A stretch of 20,735 nucleotides of DNA. It comes from a virus. The position numbers and the translations under genes were made by a program. Within the stretch, counting starts at the first letter, position 1, and the number at the start of each line of letters is the position of its first letter. The DNA is taken from IMG/VR virus record IMGVR_UViG_3300046804_005603, positions 1-20,735 of that record. One strand, 5' to 3'. Of this stretch, positions 1,325 to 18,628 are shown one piece after another. The notes beneath the pieces were generated by a model that saw nothing but the letters and a program-made list of their open reading frames with translations, made no database searches and was not told where the DNA came from.

Positions 1325-1357
1325 GATTAAATGATAGCTGGTATTATAAAGAAATCA

Positions 1358-1365
1358 ACTAAATA
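1358..1365 (+). promoter_or_regulatory. T4-type late promoter box (ACTAAATA)
   Basis: ACTAAATA lies 5 bases before the ATG at 1371. It is a one- or two-base variant of the T4 late box TATAAATA and has the same position relative to the start codon as the boxes of several other structural genes here. It would drive the two plus-strand baseplate genes. Confidence 0.5.
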
Positions 1366-5537: not shown

Positions 5538-6551
5538 TTAAAATCCTACTTTCTTACTAGCAAATCCAACACTCGGTTTAAAGTCTTCGCTTGAAGCAGT
5601 GCTACTAATTAATTCTTTAATACGTTCTACAGATTCATTAAAATCATTATTCAAACATTTAACTGAAATTAACAATTCTGCTAATGCAGCAAATGTAAAC
5701 CCTTCTGTGGCAACTGCCCATTTAGATAATTCTGCATCTTTAATCCCGAGTTTATGTTTAAAATAAAACTCACGCATTGAAGCATCAGGGTAACCAATTT
5801 TAACCAATCTATCAAATCTTCGTGGGCGTCCTACGATTCGTCTATCTAATCGTTCTGGATAGTTGGTGGTTGCAATGTTTAATACATGATCAATAACGTT
5901 TTCACCATCAAGTAAATTCAACATATCTTCTTCACCATATTGTCTAATAATTGTATCAATATCTTCAAATACACAAACAACTTTTCGTGCTGGTTCAATG
6001 TCTCGAAATACCTTCAATCCTTTACTAACAATATCTGGTCTATAGTCACAGATAAACACAATTCCTCCATTTTTCACAATGCGATCTATAATTTGTTTAA
6101 TCAAAACGGTTTTTCCTGTGCCTGGGGGCCCGTATAATATCATTCCTCTTCGATGCAATACTTTATATTGCTTAAAGACCTTTTCTTGTGACCAAAATGT
6201 TTCAATTTCCTTTTCTACTTGATTGATTAATGAATCTCTAAATGTGAGCCATTCATCCGATTGTATTTCTATTTTTGTGTAATAAACACCTGCATCATTT
6301 ATGCCAATATTATATGTTCCTGGGTCTAATTTTTTTACTGTATTACCTGCAGCATAATATGAGCTACCATGTATTGTATATTGTTTAGGAAGCTGTAATT
6401 TTTCCATTGCTGCATAAAGTTCTTTTTCACATGTAGGTTCTATGGGTCTATCTGTATAGAAGTCTAATGCATCTGAAGTTAGTTTATTTGCACTTGCACC
6501 TTCATTATATTCATCACCATTTTTACCGAATTCGTCTAATGCGTTGTTCAT
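5538..6551 (-). CDS. AAA+ family ATPase
   Basis: 337 residues. Walker A is GPPGTGKT (141-148), Walker B VVCVFEDID (191-199), sensor 1 ATTN (227-230), and the arginine-rich end of the AAA module is RRIVGRPRRFDR (237-248), typical of classic AAA proteins (BCS1/FtsH/CDC48-like) that form hexamers and remodel proteins. The first 100 residues are not AAA; they include a beta-rich patch (HGSSYYAAGNTVKKLDPGTY) that may bind a partner. There is no protease domain or membrane segment. The substrate is unknown. Its ATG overlaps the thyX stop by 4 bases (ATGA), which suggests translational coupling, and guaC follows after 2 bases. It is not the clamp loader gp44 or the terminase, both of which have different motifs. 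Confidence 0.85.
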   Translation of the reverse strand: MNNALDEFGKNGDEYNEGASANKLTSDALDFYTDRPIEPTCEKELYAAMEKLQLPKQYTIHGSSYYAAGNTVKKLDPGTYNIGINDAGVYYTKIEIQSDEWLTFRDSLINQVEKEIETFWSQEKVFKQYKVLHRRGMILYGPPGTGKTVLIKQIIDRIVKNGGIVFICDYRPDIVSKGLKVFRDIEPARKVVCVFEDIDTIIRQYGEEDMLNLLDGENVIDHVLNIATTNYPERLDRRIVGRPRRFDRLVKIGYPDASMREFYFKHKLGIKDAELSKWAVATEGFTFAALAELLISVKCLNNDFNESVERIKELISSTASSEDFKPSVGFASKKVGF

Positions 6552-8197: not shown

Positions 8198-8214
8198 TAT
8201 TTATTGAATAAATA
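8198..8214. promoter_or_regulatory. Palindromic double late-promoter box
   Basis: The 17 bases TATTTATTGAATAAATA form a perfect inverted repeat with a single central G (8206). Read on either strand it gives AATAAATA, the late-box pattern of this genome. One arm points to the minus-strand gene starting at 8187 (10-base spacing), the other to the plus-strand ATG at 8220 (5-base spacing). It probably serves both divergent genes. Confidence 0.55.
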
Positions 8215-8219
8215 TGATT

Positions 8220-8564
8220 ATGAGATCGACCGATGTGGATAATATTTATCTTGAATATTCAAGTCAAGTACAGCCTGGTAATGCACCAATTCTACCTGAG
8301 CCAAGTAGTTCATACTTAACAACACAAAGTATGAATGGTCCAGGGAACGGCCCACATACATTATCAGATCATAATTCAGTTATAGATGGTAATGAAGGAA
8401 CAATGATACCAGGCTTACGTAAAAAGGATAATACTTTAATCAAGAAAAAAGAATTGATTAAAGTTATTAACAAGCTTATAAATGCAAGTGAAGCTAGAAA
8501 AATGAAATATGCTACTGATGTTTTAGTACAGCTTAAAAATGCTATTAAACATCTTTCTGCTTAA
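8220..8564 (+). CDS. Hypothetical late protein (114 aa)
   Basis: Not recognised. The first 60 residues are Ser/Pro/Gly/Asn-rich and probably unstructured (QPGNAPILPEPSSSYL, GPGNGPHTLSDHN). The last 50 are basic and helical (KKKELIKVINKLINASEARKMKYATDVLVQL). An in-frame ATG exists at 8214, but it overlaps the AATAAATA box. I chose 8220 because it puts the ATG 5 bases after the box, the spacing seen at several other late genes. Its 3' end overlaps the converging membrane-protein gene by 20 bases. Probably a minor virion or assembly protein. Confidence 0.65.
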   Translation: MRSTDVDNIYLEYSSQVQPGNAPILPEPSSSYLTTQSMNGPGNGPHTLSDHNSVIDGNEGTMIPGLRKKDNTLIKKKELIKVINKLINASEARKMKYATDVLVQLKNAIKHLSA

Positions 8565-8841
8565 GTTTAACTGTTATTTGCTGTATACATTGAACAATTG
8601 AATCTGCAGTCCAACTACACGCAGCAGATATAAGCGGTGCTAGTATACACCGACTATGCAGACTATCAATAGTAAATGGTAATAATATTACACCAGACCA
8701 AAACCCAAGACAAAGAGAACATTTAAATAATTCATCTAATTTTTCTGATCTTTGTACTAAGTAATCTCGGATCGGTTTTAAAATATGACCATATTTTAAA
8801 ATAAAAGTCAATCCGATATTAGCTAATATTACCCAGATCAT
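8545..8841 (-). CDS. DUF1360-like small membrane protein
   Basis: 98 residues with three hydrophobic segments: about 2-21 (IWVILANIGLTFILKYGHIL), 39-58 (FKCSLCLGFWSGVILLPF) and 65-85 (CILAPLISAACSWTADSIVQ). The 'CSLCLGFWSG' motif at the start of the second segment is the hallmark of DUF1360, a family of small membrane proteins common in phages and Bacillus, of unknown function. The N-terminus has no separate signal peptide. The ATG overlaps the 3' end of the 64-residue gene before it by 23 bases, and its own 3' end overlaps the converging plus-strand gene. Confidence 0.75.
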   Translation of the reverse strand: MIWVILANIGLTFILKYGHILKPIRDYLVQRSEKLDELFKCSLCLGFWSGVILLPFTIDSLHSRCILAPLISAACSWTADSIVQCIQQITVKLKQKDV

Positions 8842-9013
8842 ATTGCGCGAGTTTTTCAGTTAGCTCGATCAATTCATCTTTTTGCAAAAGAATCTTTCCT
8901 CCAAAATCATCGGTAATTTCAAATAAATTGCTATTTACATCAGTTTGTGAAACTGTAGGGCAGCCATTGCCACCACAGCAAAGCTTGAATTGGATTTTTG
9001 ATTGGTTGTTCAT
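8819..9013 (-). CDS. Small Cys-containing hypothetical protein (64 aa)
   Basis: Not recognised. The segment LCCGGNGCPTV (12-22) holds three cysteines and could bind a metal or a flavin. The rest reads as a short beta hairpin (NLFEITDDFGGKILLQKDE) followed by a helix. The last 23 bases are shared, in another frame, with the start of the membrane-protein gene, which suggests co-translation. A near late box (AATAAAAATA) precedes the ATG but is not an exact match. Confidence 0.6.
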   Translation of the reverse strand: MNNQSKIQFKLCCGGNGCPTVSQTDVNSNLFEITDDFGGKILLQKDELIELTEKLAQYDLGNIS

Positions 9014-9022
9014 AAAATATTT

Positions 9023-9370
9023 TTATTGCGCGAGGATTGATCCTGTATAAAACGCTGTACGATACGAAACTGTTATTGCGCTTGAAGCGCTTGCACTTAC
9101 CACGCTAGTCGACGTCATACCTTTAAATTTAAATTGAGTTGCACCGTTATTATTAAGCGGAATTGTTAATGCATTTACAAAATCATTGTTATCATAAAGA
9201 GTGACAGTTGCTGTGCTTGCAGGGAATATAAAATCAATTTCAGAACATGCTGTTTGTGTTCCACACAAAGAGCGTAAAGTTGTGGTGAATAATTGTGTAT
9301 ATGATTGACAAATATTCTTATTATAATATGTAGAACCGTTATTTGTAGTAAGTGGTACAGGGGTAGCCAT
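9023..9370 (-). CDS. Probable small virion protein (115 aa)
   Basis: Not recognised by family. The composition is that of a beta-sandwich structural protein: Thr/Ser/Asn/Ala-rich, few charges, alternating strands (ATVTLYDNNDFVNALTIPL, ATQFKFKGM, SAITVSYRTAFYTGSI). Two cysteines lie at about 36 and 42. A GATAAATA box ends 5 bases before its ATG, the same arrangement as gp21, so late expression is likely. It could be a head-decoration or tail-associated protein; the sequence alone does not decide. Confidence 0.65.
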   Translation of the reverse strand: MATPVPLTTNNGSTYYNKNICQSYTQLFTTTLRSLCGTQTACSEIDFIFPASTATVTLYDNNDFVNALTIPLNNNGATQFKFKGMTSTSVVSASASSAITVSYRTAFYTGSILAQ

Positions 9371-9371
9371 G

Positions 9372-10121
9372 TTAATATTTATCTATCTCGTCTAGAAATG
9401 TCTTCACTTTTAGCTTAAATCTTTGCCATAATTTTGGAGATTTAGATAACGCATCTAACATATCTACTTTATTTTTAAATGCAAATGGTAACAAATTCAA
9501 ATCGTAATTTTCCCAAGGACTTTTAAGAAACGTTAATAAGCTATTCTTAAATTTTTGTATAAAAATATTGCGCACAGGTTGTGGCAAATTTTTAGCTTTT
9601 TGTAATGTTTCTTGTAATCTATGAAAAACTTCAGCTTCTTGTGCATCTAATTCATGAGGTGCACCATAATAAAAAAACTCATTCTCAAACCCCTTTTTAC
9701 CTTGCAAATGTTTTGTATATGATTTATGTGCGTGTTTATACTGCTGTGTGGCGTGGCGCAATTCATGCTTTAAATGGTTTATCATATTATTTTCATGTCG
9801 CGGATCTAAAGCCATAATATAATTCAATACAATTATATTGTATTTGCGTGTTATAATATCAAATCCTTTATAATATGCTGGTTCTTTAATTTTACCGATA
9901 AATACAGTAACATTTATTTTTTTGTTTGTAGATTTATCTATTGTTGATATTTTACCAATGGGTACACGTCTTGTATGTGCAAGCGATTTAATTTTTGCAA
10001 CTTTTTCTTTTGTGTTGTATTTTTTTAAAAGTTGATGAATTAACATTTCTGCTTGTTTTTCGTCTTGGCTGGATAATGATGGGAAACGCTTTTCTAAAAT
10101 GTATGTTTTAAATGTTCGCAT
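9372..10121 (-). CDS. Putative zincin metallopeptidase
   Basis: 249 residues. The central motif LKHELRHATQQ (117-127) fits H-E-x-x-H of zinc metallopeptidases, with zinc-binding His119 and His123 and catalytic Glu120. APHELDAQEAEVF (154-166) supplies acidic residues (E157, D159, E162) placed about 35 residues later, as the third ligand of gluzincin-like enzymes often is. The N-terminus MRTFKTYILEK resembles the short 'M-R/K-T/S-F-K-x-[FY]' leaders seen on internal head proteins of T4-like phages. A late box precedes the gene, so it may be packaged in the head or act in head maturation. This role is inference. A degenerate protease fold without activity is also possible. Confidence 0.6.
   Translation of the reverse strand: MRTFKTYILEKRFPSLSSQDEKQAEMLIHQLLKKYNTKEKVAKIKSLAHTRRVPIGKISTIDKSTNKKINVTVFIGKIKEPAYYKGFDIITRKYNIIVLNYIMALDPRHENNMINHLKHELRHATQQYKHAHKSYTKHLQGKKGFENEFFYYGAPHELDAQEAEVFHRLQETLQKAKNLPQPVRNIFIQKFKNSLLTFLKSPWENYDLNLLPFAFKNKVDMLDALSKSPKLWQRFKLKVKTFLDEIDKY
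9376..9383 (-). promoter_or_regulatory. T4-type late promoter box (GATAAATA)
   Basis: Minus-strand GATAAATA, 5 bases (TTAAC) before the ATG at 9370 of the 115-residue protein. It lies inside the last codons of the upstream metallopeptidase gene. Confidence 0.6.
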
Positions 10122-10130
10122 TTTATTATA

Positions 10131-10138
10131 TATTTATT
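10131..10138 (-). promoter_or_regulatory. T4-type late promoter box (AATAAATA)
   Basis: Minus-strand AATAAATA, 9 bases before the ATG at 10121. Its first two bases are part of the TAA stop codon (10139-10137) of the upstream endonuclease gene. Confidence 0.55.
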
Positions 10139-11684
10139 ATATTAATTGAAATAAGTAATTCCCGCAGTCCCATATTCTTGTATATCCATTATTAGTCATA
10201 TTAACATGTTCTGTTAAATTAGGATCGTATATCTTTAATAGTTTGGGAAGCTCTGTTTTTCTATATTTCCATCTGTGTTCTCTCACGATAAAGTGCTTTG
10301 TATACCAATAATTAGGAACAGTTTCTCTCACAAGTTCAAATCCAGCTTTAATATAAGTGTTACCCGCAGACCACCGTTTATCGCAATAGCTATAAATTAT
10401 AGAATCAGATCTTAACTGTTTGAAATATTTTATAAGTTTCGACAAACCACCAGTAATTGCAAAATTGTTTATAGTTGCGTATCTAATTAATTCGAAATCA
10501 TTAGAACGAGATTGTTTAAACCCGGTCACGCGTCTCATTTTACCAAATGTAGCAACCGCAACTAATCTATCTTTATAAAATAATCCGACATTTGTATTAC
10601 TTGGCGCATCTCCTTGAAGGTGATATTTTTCCATAAACGATTTTTTTGTTTTTGTATTAAGTAATTGCACTGCGCACTCTCTCGCACCAATTTTATATCT
10701 GGTTTTATGTAATAAATGTTTTAATTTAGATAATACCACCTTTCTTTTGAATTGTAACTCATCTTCAAATATTTGAATCAATTGTATACCTTTTTGTTTG
10801 AAAAATTCTTGTTTATTTACATGGTAATGTTTGTCTAAAAGCTTTTCTGAATGCCAGTATAAACCGTTAATTTCTATACCAAGTTTATATTCCGGAATAT
10901 AAACATCAATTTCATATTCATTATCAAATTCTTTTCTTGCGCGATATATGTAATTAATACCTAAATTATCAAGAAATTTTTTGATTAATTTTTCATTTTT
11001 AGTACCTTTTTCTGGATTGCAAAAAGGACAAATTTGTTCGTTCAATTTTTGTCTACCTAATACATACTCAAATGTGTTATCACATTTTTTACATTTTAAT
11101 TGATATCTATGATATGTTCCTTTATATTCATTAAAGTTAAATGCTGGCAGTATATAGTCGTTATTCAGTAAATAGTTATAGTATTTTAGTTTATGCGTTA
11201 ATTGAATTTTATTTCCACAATGAGTTCTTTTAATATCACCGTTTTTAATTCTTTGTTTATATTCATTAGATTGTGTGTAATTTGATACACCATATTTAGA
11301 TTGAAGGGTTTCATTTTTTTTAGATATACCATGTTTACTAATCAACACATTCGATGCTCCATATCGTTCAATATTCGTTTTGCGTTTTTTGTCTTGAATG
11401 TTTTTAATATCAGAGATTCTACATTTATTTGAACAGTATAATTGCCATCCGTTGTTACTATTAAATTTTACGTTCTTATTACAACATTTACATACTGGTT
11501 GCGCAACGATATTATTTACCCAGCAATACACTTTTAATGAAAATGGCTTATCAATAAATGATATTTCTTTGTTTATTTTTGTGTGACAATCTTTACCAAA
11601 TTTGTTTATGAACATTTGCTCTTTAATAAATCTGTACGATCCTTTGTAATTTGTTTGTATAAAATCTTTAATTTGGTCTTGCAT
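10137..11684 (-). CDS. Freestanding Vsr-like / homing-type endonuclease with zinc fingers
   Basis: 515 residues, a family scattered through large phages. Domains in order: a zinc finger CKCC...YCSNKC (C65, C68, C84, C88); short repeats of the type N-x-x-x-Y-G-x-S-N (103-112 and 124-135), probably DNA-binding; a zinc ribbon CKKC...CPFC (198-222); a Vsr/PD-(D/E)xK-like nuclease core YEIDVYIPEYKLGIEINGLYWHSEK (257-281, split: D260, E271, N273, H278), followed by LIQIFEDE (302-309); and a C-terminal domain (about 340-515) with GNTYIKAGFEL (441-451), a GNAT-like pattern. Such genes behave as mobile, intron-less homing elements in phages. It stands between the capsid gene and the metallopeptidase, with its own TATAAATA promoter and just after the capsid terminator. 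Codon use is AT-richer than in the capsid gene. Confidence 0.8.
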   Translation of the reverse strand: MQDQIKDFIQTNYKGSYRFIKEQMFINKFGKDCHTKINKEISFIDKPFSLKVYCWVNNIVAQPVCKCCNKNVKFNSNNGWQLYCSNKCRISDIKNIQDKKRKTNIERYGASNVLISKHGISKKNETLQSKYGVSNYTQSNEYKQRIKNGDIKRTHCGNKIQLTHKLKYYNYLLNNDYILPAFNFNEYKGTYHRYQLKCKKCDNTFEYVLGRQKLNEQICPFCNPEKGTKNEKLIKKFLDNLGINYIYRARKEFDNEYEIDVYIPEYKLGIEINGLYWHSEKLLDKHYHVNKQEFFKQKGIQLIQIFEDELQFKRKVVLSKLKHLLHKTRYKIGARECAVQLLNTKTKKSFMEKYHLQGDAPSNTNVGLFYKDRLVAVATFGKMRRVTGFKQSRSNDFELIRYATINNFAITGGLSKLIKYFKQLRSDSIIYSYCDKRWSAGNTYIKAGFELVRETVPNYWYTKHFIVREHRWKYRKTELPKLLKIYDPNLTEHVNMTNNGYTRIWDCGNYLFQLI

Positions 11685-11695
11685 GCTTTTAATAC

Positions 11696-11703
11696 TATTT
11701 ATA
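11696..11703 (-). promoter_or_regulatory. T4 late promoter box (TATAAATA)
   Basis: An exact minus-strand match to the T4 late consensus, 11 bases before the ATG at 11684 of the endonuclease gene. It lies after the capsid-gene terminator, so the endonuclease is transcribed independently of gp23. Confidence 0.65.
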
Positions 11704-11734
11704 TTAGCACCGATAATATTATCAATATGATTTA

Positions 11735-11773
11735 GAATAAAAAAGGAAACGCTCTCATTTCTGAGAGCGTTTC
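11735..11773 (-). terminator. Strong factor-independent terminator after gp23
   Basis: On the minus strand, a perfect 12-bp stem (11773-11762 with 11757-11746; arms GAAACGCTCTCA and TGAGAGCGTTTC) is capped by a GAAA tetraloop (11761-11758) and followed by C and six T residues (11745-11739). It lies 23 bases beyond the gp23 stop. The GNRA loop and the U-tract make it a textbook intrinsic terminator. Confidence 0.92.
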
Positions 11774-11795
11774 GATTGCTTGACTAATCCGAAGA

Positions 11796-13283
11796 TTAGA
11801 AGTATACTGATTGATTACCCGGAGTAAACGCGGTACCAAGACCCTGAACGAGCACGAGGTGGTAATAAAGATTAGCACCAAAGATGTTGTCTACAACACC
11901 ATAACGTGTTAATAGACCAACTCGAGGAGCAAAATCGTTAGGACCGATTGTGCGTTGAACCATTACTGGGATATATGGGCAGTAGATGATACCTGTATCA
12001 TAGAATTCGCTACCCTTGAAACCAAGGAGAGCATACTCAATACCACTTGTCTGTCCAGAGTAACCGTTGCCGGTTCCATAAACAGATGTGTTTTGAGATT
12101 CTGTGCGTGTATCACGATAAACGTTGAAACGTCCACCTAAGCTACCAACCTTAGCAACGCCTGTTGGCTGGGTATTGACGGTGCCCTGGACGGTCACCCA
12201 CTGGAATTCAGGGAGTGCTTCCAAGATTGCGCAAACGCGTGGAGTTGCAACGATAAAGTTTGCAGAACCACGGCGGTTACGTACTGCCATACGATTTGCT
12301 TCGTTGATGAGCTTCTGATAGAAGTCACGGCTACGTTCTACTAACCAACGACCATCAGCAGATGCTGGATTCCAAATAGAAATACCAGGACCAAATCCAC
12401 CATTTAAGGCAGACTGGATCATACGAAGAACCATTTCACGGTCGATTTCTGCTTGAAGTTCATATGCCATAGCATTTGTGATTTCAGCATCGATATCGAT
12501 ACCATTCATGTTCTTAAGATCCTGCTCGAGTTCTACCGACCAGCGAGCACCAAGTCTACGAGTACCTGCTTCAACAGCAGTCTTTTCGAAACTGATGTCA
12601 ACTGTTGGGATATTGGCATTGATTTCGAAATTCTTGAGAATTTCTGCAACACCCTTATCTTGATCAGCAAATGACCAGTAGCTGGAGTTACCAGTTAATG
12701 CGGTTGAGCTTGTGCCAGTGAAGCGGGTATCAAGGTGTTGATAACCTAATTCATTGTTTTTTGCAGAACCGGAACCGGTGTATTGTCCACCGTACTGAGT
12801 ACGGGTACCAACAGTCTGTGCATTTGGTGAATCAACACCATCGCCACCGCCAAGTGTGGTTGTACCATACTTATAACGGAGAGCAAATGCTAGACCAACT
12901 GGACCGCTCATTGGCTGAACGCCGACGATTTCGTTAGTAATAAGTTCAGGGAAAGTACGACGAATCATGGGAATCAAAATCTTTGGAAGACGAGCATCAT
13001 TTGCAGCATATGTATCACCGGATGTGATCGTATTTGGTGGATTATAGTTCCCCCCTGCGGAAGAACCGAATACGCTACCAGTTGGACCGCCAGCAACATT
13101 TGCTTCGTTAAAGCAGTATGTCTCTTGGTTCTCAAGCAACATAGCTGTGTTTAAACGAACGTGTTCATCTTCAATCGGTGCTACATTCTTCGATGAATAG
13201 TCGAGGACTGCGCCCCACTTTTCAAGAAGTTGTGAAGCACGATCTTGATTGATATAAGCCTGTGTAGGTTTAATCTTATTCAT
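11796..13283 (-). CDS. 23: Major capsid protein precursor gp23
   Basis: 495 residues; T4 gp23 is 521. It forms the hexamers of the head. Conserved T4-family segments: LLENQE (49-54), the cleavage region CFNE/ANVAGG (57-66), LIPMIRRTFPELI (102-114), GVQPMSGPVGLAFALRYKYG (120-139), and the long helix with MAYELQAEIDREMV. The T4 precursor is cut by gp21 after Glu in FLTE/AEIGG; here the aligned cut would be after Glu60, giving a mature protein of 435 residues. The last third ends in the usual 'GPNDFAPRVGLLTRYG' region. Base composition is visibly richer in G and C than in its neighbours, with more frequently used codons, as for a highly expressed gene. Its leader has AAAGGAAA about 12 bases before the ATG, and a strong terminator follows. 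Confidence 0.97.
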   Translation of the reverse strand: MNKIKPTQAYINQDRASQLLEKWGAVLDYSSKNVAPIEDEHVRLNTAMLLENQETYCFNEANVAGGPTGSVFGSSAGGNYNPPNTITSGDTYAANDARLPKILIPMIRRTFPELITNEIVGVQPMSGPVGLAFALRYKYGTTTLGGGDGVDSPNAQTVGTRTQYGGQYTGSGSAKNNELGYQHLDTRFTGTSSTALTGNSSYWSFADQDKGVAEILKNFEINANIPTVDISFEKTAVEAGTRRLGARWSVELEQDLKNMNGIDIDAEITNAMAYELQAEIDREMVLRMIQSALNGGFGPGISIWNPASADGRWLVERSRDFYQKLINEANRMAVRNRRGSANFIVATPRVCAILEALPEFQWVTVQGTVNTQPTGVAKVGSLGGRFNVYRDTRTESQNTSVYGTGNGYSGQTSGIEYALLGFKGSEFYDTGIIYCPYIPVMVQRTIGPNDFAPRVGLLTRYGVVDNIFGANLYYHLVLVQGLGTAFTPGNQSVYF

Positions 13284-13373
13284 AATTGTTGTGTGTTTCC
13301 TTTCTTGTTAAATGTCGTAAGAAAATATTACGACGTTCAGATATATGACGTATATATCTCTACTTAAAAACTA
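13284..13373 (-). promoter_or_regulatory. gp23 leader with two hairpins
   Basis: The 90 bases between gp22 and gp23 hold two potential RNA hairpins on the minus strand. One has a 7-bp stem GATATAT/ATATATC (13358-13340) with a 5-base loop. The other has a 7-bp stem GTCGTAA/TTACGAC (13334-13314) with a 7-base loop. They are followed by AAGAAAGGAAAC, a possible ribosome site. No NATAAATA box is present. The region may stabilise the capsid message or mark a processing site between gp22 and gp23. Confidence 0.5.
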
Positions 13374-14252
13374 TTAATATCGTGAAAGTTCACTCAAATA
13401 TGTGTTTAATTGAGGATCAACGTTCTCATTGATTATTTCTTCAACGTTTTCTTCAACCACCACATCTTCTTTAACTGTACGATTATTGAAAGCTTCTTCT
13501 TTTAATGTCTCGAGACGCTCTTCATCCTTTTTGTCGAAAAGGCTAAGTGTATAATCAATGTTCTCGGTTATAAACTTAGGAGATTTTCCGGCTAGCACGC
13601 GCTTTGCGTAAGCCTTCTTCTTCTCAGGAAGTAAAGCAGTCTTCTGTTCTAATATAAGATCAGCTTGCGTTTTAGCTAAGCTTTCTCTAAGAACAGCAAT
13701 TTGCTGCTTATGTGTCTCAAGCTCTTTAAGAGCTTCATCTATTTGTTGTTTACCATCAAGGATACCTTCTTTGATGGAATCGTTCATTAATGCGGAATCT
13801 ACTGCAAGTGATTCGCGCAAACTCTTTAAGATAATTGTGGCTTTTTTGTTCTTTACAGCCTCGTTTATCGTTTCTTGTGGAATTACTTCATCAAGATATG
13901 TTTCTAAATATAAACTAATATCATTGATAAGTTTTTCTTGTAAATTCTTTGCATCTTCTGTGATGGCGCCACTATAACGTTTTACAACTGCCTTTAATTT
14001 TTCAGCATTGTTTGCATCAATTGCTTCAACTACGTTTGTGAGCTTCTTAGAGTGATCAGCATCAATCGCTTCTAATAATGCTTGCAATTTTTCTGTGTAC
14101 TCAGCATCTTGTTTGTCAAGAGCTGCTTCAACATTTAATTGAACTTTTGAATCAACTGCTTCTAAAAAGGCAGTTTCGATTTGATTAAGAGAATCATCTG
14201 TTAAAAGACCTTGTGTCGCTTCTTTTAATAATGGTTTGATGTCTTTTGTCAT
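13374..14252 (-). CDS. 22: Prohead core scaffold protein gp22
   Basis: 292 residues; T4 gp22 is 269. Highly charged, helical and coiled-coil forming, as expected for the main prohead scaffold, which is degraded by gp21 during maturation. Residues 41-90 contain three tandem repeats of about 15 residues built on V-E-A-[IL]-D-x-x-x-x-x-K-L. The central part (160-225) has a long K/E/Q helix (GKQQIDEALKELETHKQQ). The C-terminal SPKFITENIDYTLSLFDKKDEERL resembles the conserved C-terminal end of T4-like scaffolds. The tail is very acidic (VVVEENVEEIINENVD). Position between gp21 and gp23 confirms the identity. The ATG follows the 48-residue gene by 7 bases. Confidence 0.88.
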   Translation of the reverse strand: MTKDIKPLLKEATQGLLTDDSLNQIETAFLEAVDSKVQLNVEAALDKQDAEYTEKLQALLEAIDADHSKKLTNVVEAIDANNAEKLKAVVKRYSGAITEDAKNLQEKLINDISLYLETYLDEVIPQETINEAVKNKKATIILKSLRESLAVDSALMNDSIKEGILDGKQQIDEALKELETHKQQIAVLRESLAKTQADLILEQKTALLPEKKKAYAKRVLAGKSPKFITENIDYTLSLFDKKDEERLETLKEEAFNNRTVKEDVVVEENVEEIINENVDPQLNTYLSELSRY

Positions 14253-14259
14253 ATTTTTG

Positions 14260-14406
14260 TTAAAAAGGTTTTACACTCTTCATAGCCTTCGAAATACGTG
14301 TTTTAATCTTTTCGTTGACTATTTGCTGTAAGTATTTATTCGCATCGTTGTAATTATTTTCGGATAAACACTTTAAAAAGTTAAGAATCTGTCGTTTTTG
14401 ATTCAT
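14260..14406 (-). CDS. Small prohead core protein, gp68-like (48 aa)
   Basis: A 48-codon frame from ATG 14406 to TAA 14262-14260. The product is basic and helical, beginning MNQKRQILNFLKCLSENNY and ending KSVKPF. In T4 the small core proteins gp67 and gp68 lie just upstream of gene 21. Here the small gene lies between 21 and 22, but its size, composition (KTRISKAMKSVK) and the perfect late box TATAAATA 10 bases before the ATG argue for a real gene of that kind. The helix 'YNDANKYLQQIVNEKIKTRI' is typical of such proteins in marine T4-like phages. Orthology to gp68 is an inference. Confidence 0.65.
   Translation of the reverse strand: MNQKRQILNFLKCLSENNYNDANKYLQQIVNEKIKTRISKAMKSVKPF
14333..14340 (-). 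promoter_or_regulatory. Possible late promoter box (AATAAATA) for gp22
   Basis: Minus-strand AATAAATA inside the 48-residue gene, about 80 bases before the gp22 ATG. It could give gp22 its own transcript. As it encodes codons of the small protein (Asn-Lys-Tyr), chance occurrence is possible. Confidence 0.35.
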
Positions 14407-14416
14407 ATTATATTGT

Positions 14417-14424
14417 TATTTATA
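14417..14424 (-). promoter_or_regulatory. T4 late promoter box (TATAAATA) before the small core gene
   Basis: Exact late consensus on the minus strand. The TAA stop codon of gp21 (14422-14420) lies inside the box, and the small core gene starts 10 bases after it. Confidence 0.65.
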
Positions 14425-15091
14425 TTCTCGCTTTGATTTTATTGATGAAATCGATAACACTTTCTAATAAAAATTTTTCTACATCCTTTTTAGGTAGATC
14501 AGAAATACCTTTTTGAAAGTCTTCATACACTTCTTCAAACTTATTTGATGTGTTGCATACCCATTGTTTGGATTCTAATATACCATTAACAAATGCTGCG
14601 GGATACGATGGATCTGCGACGCAATCAACTGCAATTAAACGCATGTTTTTAACTTTGTTGCAACCATTACCTTCAATTAATTGGCCTAAAGCACGTGAAC
14701 TCATACCAACTTTAACACCATCATTAATAAGCGATCTTACTATTAATCCACATGGTGTTGATAAAACTTTGCTCTTTCCATAGAAAATATTACCACTTTG
14801 AGTTATTTCTGTAACCATGTGACATGCACGCTCTAAATCCACTTCTGCATTTGTCGGATGGTTAAGCTCACCCATTGCTCTATTATTAGCAATCATTTCA
14901 CTGCGATATCTTTCAATTTCGCGGGTCATTTCTTCTAATGGATATAAACGATTGTTGCGGTTTTTACCTTCAGCCATCATATACGGACCTTTAATGTATA
15001 AAGTTGATGGAGAATGACGATCTTTCTCTTCTAAAATATATTCGAATTGTTCTTCTGGGGCAGGTTTCTCAACAATTAGTTTTAGTAACAT
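14420..15091 (-). CDS. 21: Prohead maturation protease gp21
   Basis: 223 residues; T4 gp21 is 212. A serine protease of the herpesvirus-assemblin type that degrades the scaffold and cuts gp23 inside the prohead. Visible: NRNNRLYPLEEM (44-55), the catalytic-His motif MGELNHPT (73-80, His78), the nucleophile motif VGMSSRALG (128-136; Ser131 or Ser132), and DCVADPSYPAAFV (156-168), the conserved acidic strand and loop after it. The C-terminus is helical and charged, as in precursors that cut themselves. The ATG lies 5 bases after a CATAAATA box. It is followed by the small core gene and gp22, the usual T4 order. Confidence 0.93.
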   Translation of the reverse strand: MLLKLIVEKPAPEEQFEYILEEKDRHSPSTLYIKGPYMMAEGKNRNNRLYPLEEMTREIERYRSEMIANNRAMGELNHPTNAEVDLERACHMVTEITQSGNIFYGKSKVLSTPCGLIVRSLINDGVKVGMSSRALGQLIEGNGCNKVKNMRLIAVDCVADPSYPAAFVNGILESKQWVCNTSNKFEEVYEDFQKGISDLPKKDVEKFLLESVIDFINKIKARI

Positions 15092-15096
15092 AAAAT

Positions 15097-15104
15097 TATT
15101 TATG
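15097..15104 (-). promoter_or_regulatory. T4-type late promoter box (CATAAATA) for gp21
   Basis: Minus-strand CATAAATA, 5 bases (ATTTT) before the gp21 ATG at 15091. A second, looser copy (TATTAAATA) lies just upstream. Confidence 0.6.
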
Positions 15105-15140
15105 TGTATTTAATAAACTTTTTCAAAAAACTAGTAATAA

Positions 15141-15593
15141 CTATTTAATGTTCAAATGTTTTTCTGTCAAAATAAGAAACTCCCATCCGCGTTTTTGAGC
15201 ATATTCAGTTGCACTTGCCCATTTTGCTTGGTTAGTTATCCACCGGGTCGCCTCAGTTAATATAGTCGTTTTTTTCTTTCGTTTAGTGGGCACCGGTTGA
15301 ACTGTGTGAGCGGCAGGTTTTATCTCAATTAAGTATTTTTTAATTCCTGTGCTTTCTTTAATTTCAATAAAGTTATCTACGAAATATTTGTGAGGCTTTT
15401 GATCAATTGGACTTATATAAGGTATTATAATGTTTTCTGATCCCCATTTTATTACATTGTCATTTAAATCTGCCCAGCGCATAAATGTTAACTCATAACT
15501 TGATCTATACGTTGCAATTGTTCCAAGATATTTGTGCTTGTTTTTAGGTGTGTATATTCCTTGTTTGAATTTCGAATTACGTTGAAATGTCAT
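15141..15593 (-). CDS. 4: Head completion protein gp4 (TnsA-like nuclease fold)
   Basis: 150 residues, the same length as T4 gp4 (also called gp50/65). Protects or trims DNA ends as the filled head is closed. Conserved: NSKFKQGIYTPKNKHKYLG (6-24), YRSSYELTFMRWAD (29-42), VIKWGSENIIIPYISPID (47-64), YFVDNFIE (70-77), YLIEIKPA (87-94) and the C-terminal GWEFLILTEKHL (136-147). Glu34, Asp73, Glu90 and Lys92 form a PD-(D/E)xK-type active site. In T4, gene 4 sits with other tail and head-completion genes (2, 64, 50, 53) far from gene 21; here it is inside the head cluster. No late box is obvious, so it is probably read through from gp13. Confidence 0.85.
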   Translation of the reverse strand: MTFQRNSKFKQGIYTPKNKHKYLGTIATYRSSYELTFMRWADLNDNVIKWGSENIIIPYISPIDQKPHKYFVDNFIEIKESTGIKKYLIEIKPAAHTVQPVPTKRKKKTTILTEATRWITNQAKWASATEYAQKRGWEFLILTEKHLNIK

Positions 15594-15617
15594 GTTTTTG
15601 AATCAAAATTTCTACTG

Positions 15618-16808
15618 TCAACCTATGAAAAACATTGGTGGTTCCGCATCGAACCCTGCAACAGCACCAGTATATAGACGCTCTTCAAGCTCTTTCTTTT
15701 CTGCAGTGCCTTGTGTGAATAGATCGGTCGCGTTAAATGTTTGGCCACCGAATAATGTCAAATTACCGTATTTACCTCTTACAAGAGCTACTGATAATTT
15801 AGTTAATGCTAGCGCATATTGATAAACCCACGGCTCTTTAATAATGTCGCGTATAGGTCTTTCTACATAACAAGAAATAATACCGTAGTATCTAGTTGAT
15901 GTGGATGGTTGTGGATATAATTTTAAATATTGTGTTCTATCATTAAATTCAAATGATTGCTTGGTTGCTAACATTTTTTCTCTGGTTTCAAGCCAGTTCT
16001 TTAAAACATACCAACTAATTAAATCGAAACCATAGTTACCCATTGCGTAACTAAAATATGTTTGTTGTGCAAGTGTTTGTTCAATTGTAAATAATGTGTT
16101 TATTCCTGTTGTGGAACCTTCTTCAAAATCCGTAACAGCTATAACTTTTCGGTAATCCATAACATCGTAATCAAACATATTGTTGAATTTGACTGATGAT
16201 GTATTAACTGAACCAGATGGTGCACATGTACCACCTGTTATAAAATTAGGTAAACGTGATTGATTAAAAAACGCTGAAATAGGTACAGATGATACTGATA
16301 CATTATTTGCAAATGATGAAACTATATCATTATATGTTGTTGCGTCCAACAACTGATGAGTATGCACACCTTCTGTAAACACTGAAGATAATGTATTAAT
16401 ATATGCAAAATATGTAGCAGCAATTGAAGAAGTTGCAACGTAAACAGACTGCGGTGTTGTTAAATATGGTGCAGTATCAATTGATTCAGTAGAATGTGTA
16501 ACTTTATTAGCTAATGTTAAATCTGTATTAGCTAATGTATATAATATGTCTAATCTAATACCTTTATTCTGTTCATATAAATCTGAATCAAAAATCAAGT
16601 ACTCTTTTGTATAGCCTGCAAATTTGGTAAACATTTCACACGCAATCGAAATGTTTTCAAATAATTGGTCTTGATGAATTTCTACACTAATAAGTGGTGC
16701 ACCGAGGGCGCGAACGATTCGATCACTAAGTCTACCAAAGCAATCAATTTTACTATTTAAATTGGTAGATTGAAAAGCTGAAACTGGTGTTATCGTGCAT
16801 GTTGCCAT
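15618..16808 (-). CDS. 13: Neck protein gp13-like
   Basis: 396 residues; T4 gp13 is 309. gp13 forms the collar ring between the portal and the tail. The N-terminal LSDRIVRALGAPLISVEIHQDQL (27-49, in parts) matches the L-R-x-L-G-x-P-[VI]-x-x-[IV]-x-[VI]-x-x-x-Q pattern of marine T4-like gp13, followed by ENISIACEMF. The C-terminus KYGNLTLFGGQTFNATDLF and the final PPMFFIG resemble the end of gp13 (N-L-x-x-x-x-G ... P-P-x-x-x-x-G). A middle part of about 100 residues is Thr/Ser/Asn-rich and is probably an insertion. The ATG lies 6 bases after a CATAAATA box that overlaps the portal stop codon. Weaker alternative: another connector protein. Confidence 0.65.
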   Translation of the reverse strand: MATCTITPVSAFQSTNLNSKIDCFGRLSDRIVRALGAPLISVEIHQDQLFENISIACEMFTKFAGYTKEYLIFDSDLYEQNKGIRLDILYTLANTDLTLANKVTHSTESIDTAPYLTTPQSVYVATSSIAATYFAYINTLSSVFTEGVHTHQLLDATTYNDIVSSFANNVSVSSVPISAFFNQSRLPNFITGGTCAPSGSVNTSSVKFNNMFDYDVMDYRKVIAVTDFEEGSTTGINTLFTIEQTLAQQTYFSYAMGNYGFDLISWYVLKNWLETREKMLATKQSFEFNDRTQYLKLYPQPSTSTRYYGIISCYVERPIRDIIKEPWVYQYALALTKLSVALVRGKYGNLTLFGGQTFNATDLFTQGTAEKKELEERLYTGAVAGFDAEPPMFFIG

Positions 16809-16814
16809 TTTTTA

Positions 16815-16822
16815 TATTTATG
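16815..16822 (-). promoter_or_regulatory. T4-type late promoter box (CATAAATA) for the gp13-like gene
   Basis: Minus-strand CATAAATA, 6 bases (TAAAAA) before the ATG at 16808. The portal stop codon TAA (16820-16818) is contained in the box. Confidence 0.6.
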
Positions 16823-18614
16823 CAGTTGGTGGCGCTTCAGGCGCCGGAGCTGCTGGTGTTTCTGGTGACATTTCACCGCCTGGAGCCATTCCTGCTTCAG
16901 TACCTTCAGGTGCTGTCGCTGCTGGACCACCAGTAAAGGCTGGCGGCATTCCTCCACCACCTGCTGGTGCACCTTCCATTCCTTCCGCACCAGTTGTTGC
17001 ATTTGCACCAGCAATTACATTATTTTGCCAGTTAGGACCACCAGCTTCAATTTGTGATAGTTCCCATGCAAAGGCTTTATCCTTACGTAAAAATTCACGG
17101 TTTGCTTTAATTTCAATATCGCTCCAACCCATATACTTCTTAAGTGCAAATGTAGGTGAAATGTTTTGATTGTTACTGATATTGTTGAAATTGTTAACTT
17201 TTAATTCTAATCTTTGTGCTTCCCTAACTTCATAGAAATTTGTAGGAACATTAAACGTTAAATTAATGTTTTGCTCTTTCAAATTATACTGTTTCCACAT
17301 TCCTTTAAACTGCAAATGTGTTATAAAACCGTTTTTTAGTCCTTCTGCAAACTGCTGTTGAAGTCTAATGATGAATTTTGCAAACTTTAATTCTTCACGA
17401 AGCATATCTGCTCCATCACGAAAAGCATCTTCAGGATCTAATCTAGTTGTAGGAACTTTTAATGATTTGTATAATTTCTTAACAAAATACATTAAATCTG
17501 CCAATTCACCTAAATTTTGGCCACCAGGCAATGATATGACACTAGTGCCTTCTGAACCTGCGCGTTTTGCAAACCAAAATGAATCAAGCATTGATTGTGG
17601 ATTCATTTTTTGCACTGGTCCAGCTTGATTTACATCAAAAGTTTTAGATGACCAATAATTTTGCATTAATTTGCGCAAATATGCTTCTGCTTTTGGAGCA
17701 GGCATATTACCAACATCAACGTTAAATACTAAACGTTCTGGAGCTCGAACCAATCTATAAATGACAATTGCATCTTCAATTAAACTAAGTTGACGGTACG
17801 CTCTTCTAGAATTTTCTAAGAATGGCAAGCGCATCGTTTTATTTTCATTCCAAATATGTGAATGCACATACGTTACTTGATTCTTATCCATTGGAATGTA
17901 TTCTATTCCTACTTGTTTTAATGGATTGTTTGGATCAAATTTAGGTTTGCGATATAAGTAGCCTTTGACCAAAATGTTTTGAATATTAGAGTAAACAGGA
18001 TCTATCAACTCAGACGGTATTAATATTACACCTAAAACACCTTCATTTACATGTTCTTTATGGATGATATGTTCCCAATAAATTTCTCCTTCTACTAAGA
18101 GTTGGCGAAAATACTCCCAACCTTTATGATTTAAGTCAAAATAATTGATATATCGATTAAACTCATTAATAATGAGTTGTTTTTCATTTTCTTGAATGTT
18201 TATATTATTTGTATCAATTTTAATACAGACGCCTCCGTTATCGACATTAATGGTTTCGTCGCAAATCTCATCTAATGCATCTGAAACTTCAGCGAAGGCA
18301 GCCATGACTCGATAATCCCTGATTCTCGCTGGTTTATCCTTTTGGATATTAGCGTACATTATATCATTGTATCGCTTATCGTTGCTTGCTGTGCCAAGCG
18401 GTTGATTATTAAAATCGTATGACTGTGTTACAGAATTCCGTGATAATGCTTCAGCTCGCTGAGTTCCTGTATTTTGAAAATACTTATATTTTGGATTTAA
18501 CGAATCTGTTACACTAGCAAGAGTATTACCAGTGTATGGTAATTTTTGCGAGATGTAGTTCATTAATTCTCTTCCAAAAGTAGAAGATCTTCCGTCATCA
18601 GAAACGTAATTCAT
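16818..18614 (-). CDS. 20: Portal protein gp20
   Basis: 598 residues; T4 gp20 is 524. Twelve copies form the portal through which DNA enters. Conserved: MYANIQKDKPARIRDYRVMA (86-105), ALDEICDETI (113-122), SFWFAKRAGSEGTSVISLPGG (345-365, in parts), NLGELADLMYFVKKLYKSL (367-385) and VPTTRLDPE (387-395), all hallmark gp20 segments. Residues 537-598 are an added tail of Gly/Pro/Ala/Glu with few other residues, absent from T4, and of clearly higher GC than the rest of the gene. It is preceded by AATAAATA, 6 bases before the ATG, and followed by the gp13-like gene. Confidence 0.95.
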   Translation of the reverse strand: MNYVSDDGRSSTFGRELMNYISQKLPYTGNTLASVTDSLNPKYKYFQNTGTQRAEALSRNSVTQSYDFNNQPLGTASNDKRYNDIMYANIQKDKPARIRDYRVMAAFAEVSDALDEICDETINVDNGGVCIKIDTNNINIQENEKQLIINEFNRYINYFDLNHKGWEYFRQLLVEGEIYWEHIIHKEHVNEGVLGVILIPSELIDPVYSNIQNILVKGYLYRKPKFDPNNPLKQVGIEYIPMDKNQVTYVHSHIWNENKTMRLPFLENSRRAYRQLSLIEDAIVIYRLVRAPERLVFNVDVGNMPAPKAEAYLRKLMQNYWSSKTFDVNQAGPVQKMNPQSMLDSFWFAKRAGSEGTSVISLPGGQNLGELADLMYFVKKLYKSLKVPTTRLDPEDAFRDGADMLREELKFAKFIIRLQQQFAEGLKNGFITHLQFKGMWKQYNLKEQNINLTFNVPTNFYEVREAQRLELKVNNFNNISNNQNISPTFALKKYMGWSDIEIKANREFLRKDKAFAWELSQIEAGGPNWQNNVIAGANATTGAEGMEGAPAGGGGMPPAFTGGPAATAPEGTEAGMAPGGEMSPETPAAPAPEAPPTA

Positions 18615-18620
18615 TGTATG

Positions 18621-18628
18621 TATTTATT
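18621..18628 (-). promoter_or_regulatory. T4-type late promoter box (AATAAATA) for gp20
   Basis: Minus-strand AATAAATA, 6 bases (CATACA) before the portal ATG at 18614, and 13 bases beyond the gp15 stop codon. Confidence 0.6.

Follow-up and report, generated by a model that had tools for sequence, protein, structure and literature searches.

How close to a start codon can a late promoter of the T4 type stand, and what then becomes of the leader of the message? The question is raised by a 20,735-base fragment of the viral record IMGVR_UViG_3300046804_005603 (the window), in which T4-like head genes are encoded, namely gp20, gp21, gp23, one gp13-like gene and one gp4-like gene. Both leaderless messages and T4 late promoters are familiar phenomena, and late transcription in T4 is textbook material. 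In the window, boxes of the T4 late type lie directly in front of several ATGs, and an initial annotation proposed that head genes of this phage are translated from leaderless messages. The analysis makes it very probable that these boxes are T4-type late promoters moved against the coding sequence, and that the messages of early as well as late genes are leaderless or nearly so.

Ten T4-type late boxes were confirmed base by base at the places first proposed. Nine are exact matches to NATAAATA; the tenth, before 1371, is the variant ACTAAATA, one base off NATAAATA. Four boxes end 5 bases before an ATG. They are GATAAATA at 9376-9383 (-) before the gene of a 115-aa protein (ATG 9370), CATAAATA at 15097-15104 (-) before gp21 (ATG 15091), AATAAATA at 8207-8214 (+) before the gene at 8220, and the variant at 1358-1365 (+) before 1371. 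Two others end 6 bases before the ATG, CATAAATA at 16815-16822 (-) before the gp13-like gene (ATG 16808) and AATAAATA at 18621-18628 (-) before gp20 (ATG 18614). A second group has spacings of 9-11 and comprises AATAAATA at 10131-10138 (-), 9 bases from ATG 10121, AATAAATA at 8198-8205 (-), 10 bases from ATG 8187 (predicted 5-nt leader), TATAAATA at 14417-14424 (-), 10 bases from ATG 14406, and TATAAATA at 11696-11703 (-), 11 bases from ATG 11684. For the 8220 gene another ATG in the same frame, at 8214, overlaps the box; the spacing is fitted by the 8220 start only. In relatives, the CTAAATA variant seen before 1371 peaks at -12/-13 from the ATG, i.e. at the same position. Additionally, an exact AATAAATA box at 14333-14340 (-) is 80 bases away from the downstream ATG at 14252, whose gene has the position of gp22, and it is possibly an ordinary leadered late promoter of that gene.

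The T4 late box covers -13 to -6 relative to the transcription start (PMC1524935), so the earlier arithmetic, with a start about 6 bases past the box, was right, and at a distance of 5 the message would begin with the A of the ATG. With the start position transferred from T4, +1 would lie at the start codon or no more than about 5 nt away from it. Accordingly spaced genes in the window include the gp21 homolog (head maturation protease; 14420-15091, -; PHROG 207, E 3e-59), predicted to be leaderless, and the gp13-like head-tail adaptor, a neck gene (15618-16808, -; PHROG 211, E 3e-23), and the gp20 portal (16818-18614, -; PHROG 213, E 1e-103), each with a predicted 1-nt leader. The distances of 9-11 predict leaders of 4-6 nt, which are too short for a Shine-Dalgarno (SD) sequence. 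The proposed difference from T4 also held up, as the T4 box lies 12-94 bases from the ATG with a mode of 27-28.

An exact box stands at distance 5-6 before 5 of the 24 window genes, against a shuffled mean of 0.066, and none of 5000 shuffles reached 5. For distances of 5-11 the count is 9/24 (shuffled mean 0.23; 0/5000 shuffles). Over the whole window there is no excess of box-like sites, with 93 one-mismatch sites found and 86 expected. It is thus the placement of boxes relative to ATGs that is unusual in the window, not their number. The flat total would suit a reading by chance or composition, by which TATAAATA-like sites and ATGs abound in an A/T-rich phage and well-placed ones were picked out, but the shuffles of upstream regions speak against it, and so do the relatives.

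Relatives were fetched from viral contigs via gp23 and gp20 and near-duplicates were removed, leaving 91 loci with 1.03 Mb and 645 boxes; for each box, the distance to the ATG was scored for ORFs of at least 80 aa. This wider scan, which had been set beforehand as a refuting test, gave a very strong peak at 5-6. The counts for distances 5, 6, 7, 8, 9 and 10 were 115, 44, 27, 13, 19 and 14, and nearly all other distances had 0-5 (maximum 9, about 2 elsewhere). The peak begins abruptly at 5. In the same loci no peak was given by the motif's reverse complement, by its reversed form or by most altered versions, though one of the latter, NTTAAATA, gave a weaker peak at the same place. Each of five long contigs, scanned over its whole length, has its own peak, with 14, 9, 11, 16 and 11 starts at distance 5. 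Starts at 5-7 fall into 53 protein families, 32 of which have a member at 5.

Moreover, the spacing is kept among orthologs of the window genes at 33-82% protein identity while the spacer letters differ. Distances of 5-7 were found for 33/35 gp13-like orthologs, 41/55 gp21 orthologs and 26/34 gp20 orthologs (34/34 at 5-15, with 6 preferred). All five orthologs of the 115-aa protein (9370) have the box at 5, as do 8/16 orthologs of the gene at 14406, whose window copy has 10. Together, the shuffles, the flat motif controls and this conservation refute the chance reading, the probability of which is negligible.

An in-frame upstream ATG is absent for 109/115 distance-5 starts, and the start codons at distance 5 in the 91 loci are 115 ATG, 10 GTG and 2 TTG, so that AUG is strongly preferred. 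The ten GTG starts lie exactly 5 bases past the box, which suggests that some messages are leaderless with GUG. Many of the boxes are located where an upstream gene of the same orientation ends, so the genes behind them may also be carried by longer read-through messages. About one-fifth to two-fifths of the genes of long contigs belong to no class.

The sixth base past the box corresponds to +1 in T4, and A is overrepresented there also at starts where it is not part of the ATG. In the 91-locus family an A occupies this position in 34/54 cases at distance 8-12 (63%, p 3e-4) and in 19/26 at distance 7 (73%). The figure is 43/60 (72%, p 1e-5) for SAR11/OM43 isolates at distances of at least 13, and 10/15 (67%) in T4. 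Some subsets give little or no such signal (family at 13-59, p 0.05; long contigs at 8-12, none). This enrichment away from the ATG fits an initiating A. A related possibility is that the boxes are promoters from which the late polymerase of this clade starts slightly upstream, or slips at the A/T-rich start, giving near-leaderless messages with 1-6 nt leaders. The tail of distances at 6-11 already implies such leaders under T4 rules, and gp20 orthologs prefer 6; however, the distances have both their mode and their abrupt lower limit at exactly 5, which together with the A at box+6 points to a start on the ATG in the main class. This variant is therefore rather unlikely as the general account, though it keeps an appreciable share of the probability.

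The claim that no SD could fit was borne out. The spacer is too short by construction, and at distances of at most 7 an SD was seen in 0/51 cases in four long contigs and in 3/25 in the fifth. The lack of an SD and the constancy of the spacing invite another reading, in which the box is an A/T-rich, Kozak-like translation signal as in Bacteroidia and the 5' ends of the messages lie further upstream. Elements of the Kozak-like kind occur in hosts that are SD-blind. Bacteroidia do without SD and are described as SD-blind (PMC9976891). In favour of such a signal, the conserved quantity is the spacing to the ATG, and SD above the shuffled level is absent in four of the five long contigs. Nevertheless, the motif is letter for letter that of the T4 late promoter, and gp55 is encoded in relatives. 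In HTVC008M and Mosig the same box is also found at SD-led starts, 13-60 bases upstream of them. An excess of A at box+6 occurs also where the ATG lies elsewhere, and the Bacteroidetes-type -7 motif TAnnTTTG is not enriched. Two further observations, a second class of promoters and the exceptional leader of gp23, bear on the same reading.

Close placement reaches beyond late head genes to promoters of the sigma70 type. In genes of the relatives without a late box, TTGATT/TTGACA peaks at -34/-35 and TATAAT at -12 from the ATG. Of 66 strict sigma70-type promoters in the 230-kb contig G001, 19 have the leaderless spacing of 6; the 91 loci contain 17 with this spacing, and a reversed control gave none. 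In contig G002 no strict sigma70 promoter is spaced in this way. Judged by these motifs (TATAAT at -12 to -7, TTGA at -34/-35), early-type genes in contigs G001-G005 look leaderless as well. The window has one sigma70-type promoter with leaderless spacing, before the gene at 1324 (-), predicted to be of the early type. Its -10 element, TATCAT at 1331-1336 (-), lies 6 bases from the ATG, and its -35 element, TTGATT at 1353-1358 (-), lies 16 bases from the -10. The latter adjoins the late-type box for 1371 (+), and the two divergent promoters have base 1358 in common.

Could the boxes themselves be ordinary -10 elements of host sigma70 rather than gp55 promoters? In favour of this, TATAAATA is similar to TATAAT, and leaderless sigma70 promoters are in use in these genomes. 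However, the registers are one base apart, as TATAAT begins at -12 and the late box at -13. Furthermore, a -35 TTGA accompanies 53/95 TATAAT starts (56%) and only 24/247 late-box starts (10%), a contrast that marks the two classes as distinct, and classic T4 late head genes are among those that the boxes precede. This reading is accordingly improbable. The two classes also weigh on the translation signal, because a quite different pair of motifs, TTGA/TATAAT, yields the same start position. That two unrelated motifs agree on the start of the message is the strongest argument against it.

The major head protein is the exception. The initial proposal of leaderless head genes is supported, as a prediction, for gp20, gp21 and the gp13-like gene, but gp23, the most abundant head protein, falls outside the class. 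The window gene (11796-13283, -; PHROG 138, E 3e-84) is without a late box close upstream, and 68/75 gp23 orthologs have no box within 50 nt. Its leader (13284-13373, -) contains two predicted hairpins and the SD-like GAAAGGAAAC. The two hairpins are conserved in the leaders of about 40 relatives (e.g. L046, L024, L036), where the pattern is CCUGA...GAGGC-GCCUGA, a second hairpin, GGUCGA and then AAGGA(G)A before the ATG; the window leader keeps both hairpins and lacks GGUCGA. The first hairpin has changes on both sides among relatives. No Rfam family matched the gp23 leader. SD pairing at -4 kcal/mol or better is found for 76% of gp23 orthologs and for 17% of shuffled sequences, and the ribosomes concerned thus probably do use SD. 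A Bacteroidetes-type host was rejected on two grounds, the unenriched TAnnTTTG promoter motif and the SD of gp23. With SD seemingly read in this clade, the translation signal is even less probable than the host sigma70 reading, and the loss of leaders elsewhere looks like the work of phage promoter placement, not of an SD-blind host.

With late promoters set against the coding sequence as the preferred reading, a mechanism can be proposed. A gp55-type sigma factor on the host RNA polymerase would read the boxes, and selection would have moved them until transcription began at the first base of the ATG (distance 5) or 1-6 bases upstream (distances 6-11). Ribosomes would then probably bind the 5'-terminal AUG directly, and in bacteria most leaderless initiation proceeds by 70S ribosomes binding such an AUG directly (PMC9031893). 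Sigma70-type promoters at the equivalent position would extend leaderless expression across early and late genes. Downstream genes often overlap or abut the preceding gene, and genes packed in this way are probably translated by coupling, while gp23 would retain its structured leader with an SD-like sequence. A bolder version holds that the whole clade is mostly leaderless via two sigma factors and keeps an SD-led structured leader only on gp23, of which most protein is needed, so that the mode of ribosome entry sets head stoichiometry. The chances of this version are put at slightly below even.

Genes for the proposed machinery were sought in 12 long relatives. A gp55 gene is present in 8/12 and the clamp gene gp45 in 3/12; gp33 had no match in the 12, and its query matched nowhere at all and is hence uninformative. 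In the window's own record, a 20.7-kb fragment, gp55 was not seen. Genes for the ribosomal protein bS21 occur in records G010 and G001 and also in HTVC008M, Mosig and Melnitz. Phage bS21 was rejected as a cause, as it is found in only 2/12 long relatives and also in SAR11/OM43 phages that mostly use SD, and so does not track the trait. Contig G001 also carries tRNA-Met genes, which were examined as possible initiator tRNAs. In a portal tree, the window falls within a clade of 38 metagenomic sequences on a long, fully supported branch apart from all isolates. By gp23, cyanophages come closest to the window among isolates, with about 34% identity. A gp23 scan of genome contigs for host assignment gave two distant matches only (about 30-32% identity).

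The T4 late promoter thus appears to double as a signal that places the start codon, stripping the leader from head-gene messages. No report of leaderless messages in T4-like phages was found in the literature searched, which was mostly without subscription papers. Nor did that literature offer a precedent for a T4-like clade in which late messages are as a rule leaderless and sigma70 messages are leaderless too. Late promoters were not found in pelagimyophages by cyanophage methods (PMC7029224), and close placement may explain why they were missed in these Pelagibacter myophages. For uncultivated phages, gene finders gain a strong start-codon signal.

Compared with known systems, the promoters of the window and its relatives are nearest to those of T4 (gp55/gp33/gp45; TATAAATA), with the same 8-base box, without a -35 element, before the same head genes, and with gp55 in relatives. 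However, the T4 box is mostly 12-28 bases and at most 94 bases before the ATG, which leaves room for an SD (present in 12/13 box genes sampled), whereas relatives of the window mostly have 5-7. Cyanophage late promoters follow NATAAATA as a relaxed consensus with any base first (PMC2984593). S-PM2, Syn9 and P-SSM2 share this consensus with the window, but their boxes are mostly 19-40 bases from the ATG, with no peak at 5, and boxes of cyanophages, Vibrio phage nt-1 and Sinorhizobium phage phiM7 lie mostly 19-55 bases before it.

The Pelagibacter phages HTVC008M and Mosig and the OM43 phage Melnitz, all far outside the window's clade in the portal tree, have 9, 6 and 3 late boxes exactly 5 bases before an ATG, a class with no mention in the literature examined on them. 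In HTVC008M these genes are at 6280, 7562, 16007 (-), 18916 (-), 19456, 31132, 49760, 75559 and 142360. Two late-promoter classes coexist in HTVC008M and Mosig, one at 5 bases without SD and one at 13-60 bases with SD in between; in HTVC008M, SD is found in 7/7 genes with a box at 13 or more and in 2/8 with a box at 7 or less. The DNA end protector gp2 is in the close-box class in HTVC008M and Mosig, and probably, by position, in Melnitz. Unlike in the window's clade, most late genes of these three phages have SD-led leaders, and their sigma70 promoters are without a clear leaderless peak. As the three have both classes and cultured hosts, leaderless and SD-led late genes can be compared in one infection.

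Among cellular systems, a TA-like signal some 12 bp upstream of the start is an accepted mark of bacterial leaderless genes, and the TANNNT of Actinobacteria and Deinococcus has the same geometry as the sigma70-type promoters described here (PMC3160421). The difference is that here the same end is predicted to be reached also via a second, phage-encoded sigma factor, and in a virus. Among phages, the classic leaderless message is that of lambda cI, translated from a 5'-terminal AUG. That is a single gene, whereas the relatives of the window have dozens of predicted leaderless starts per genome.
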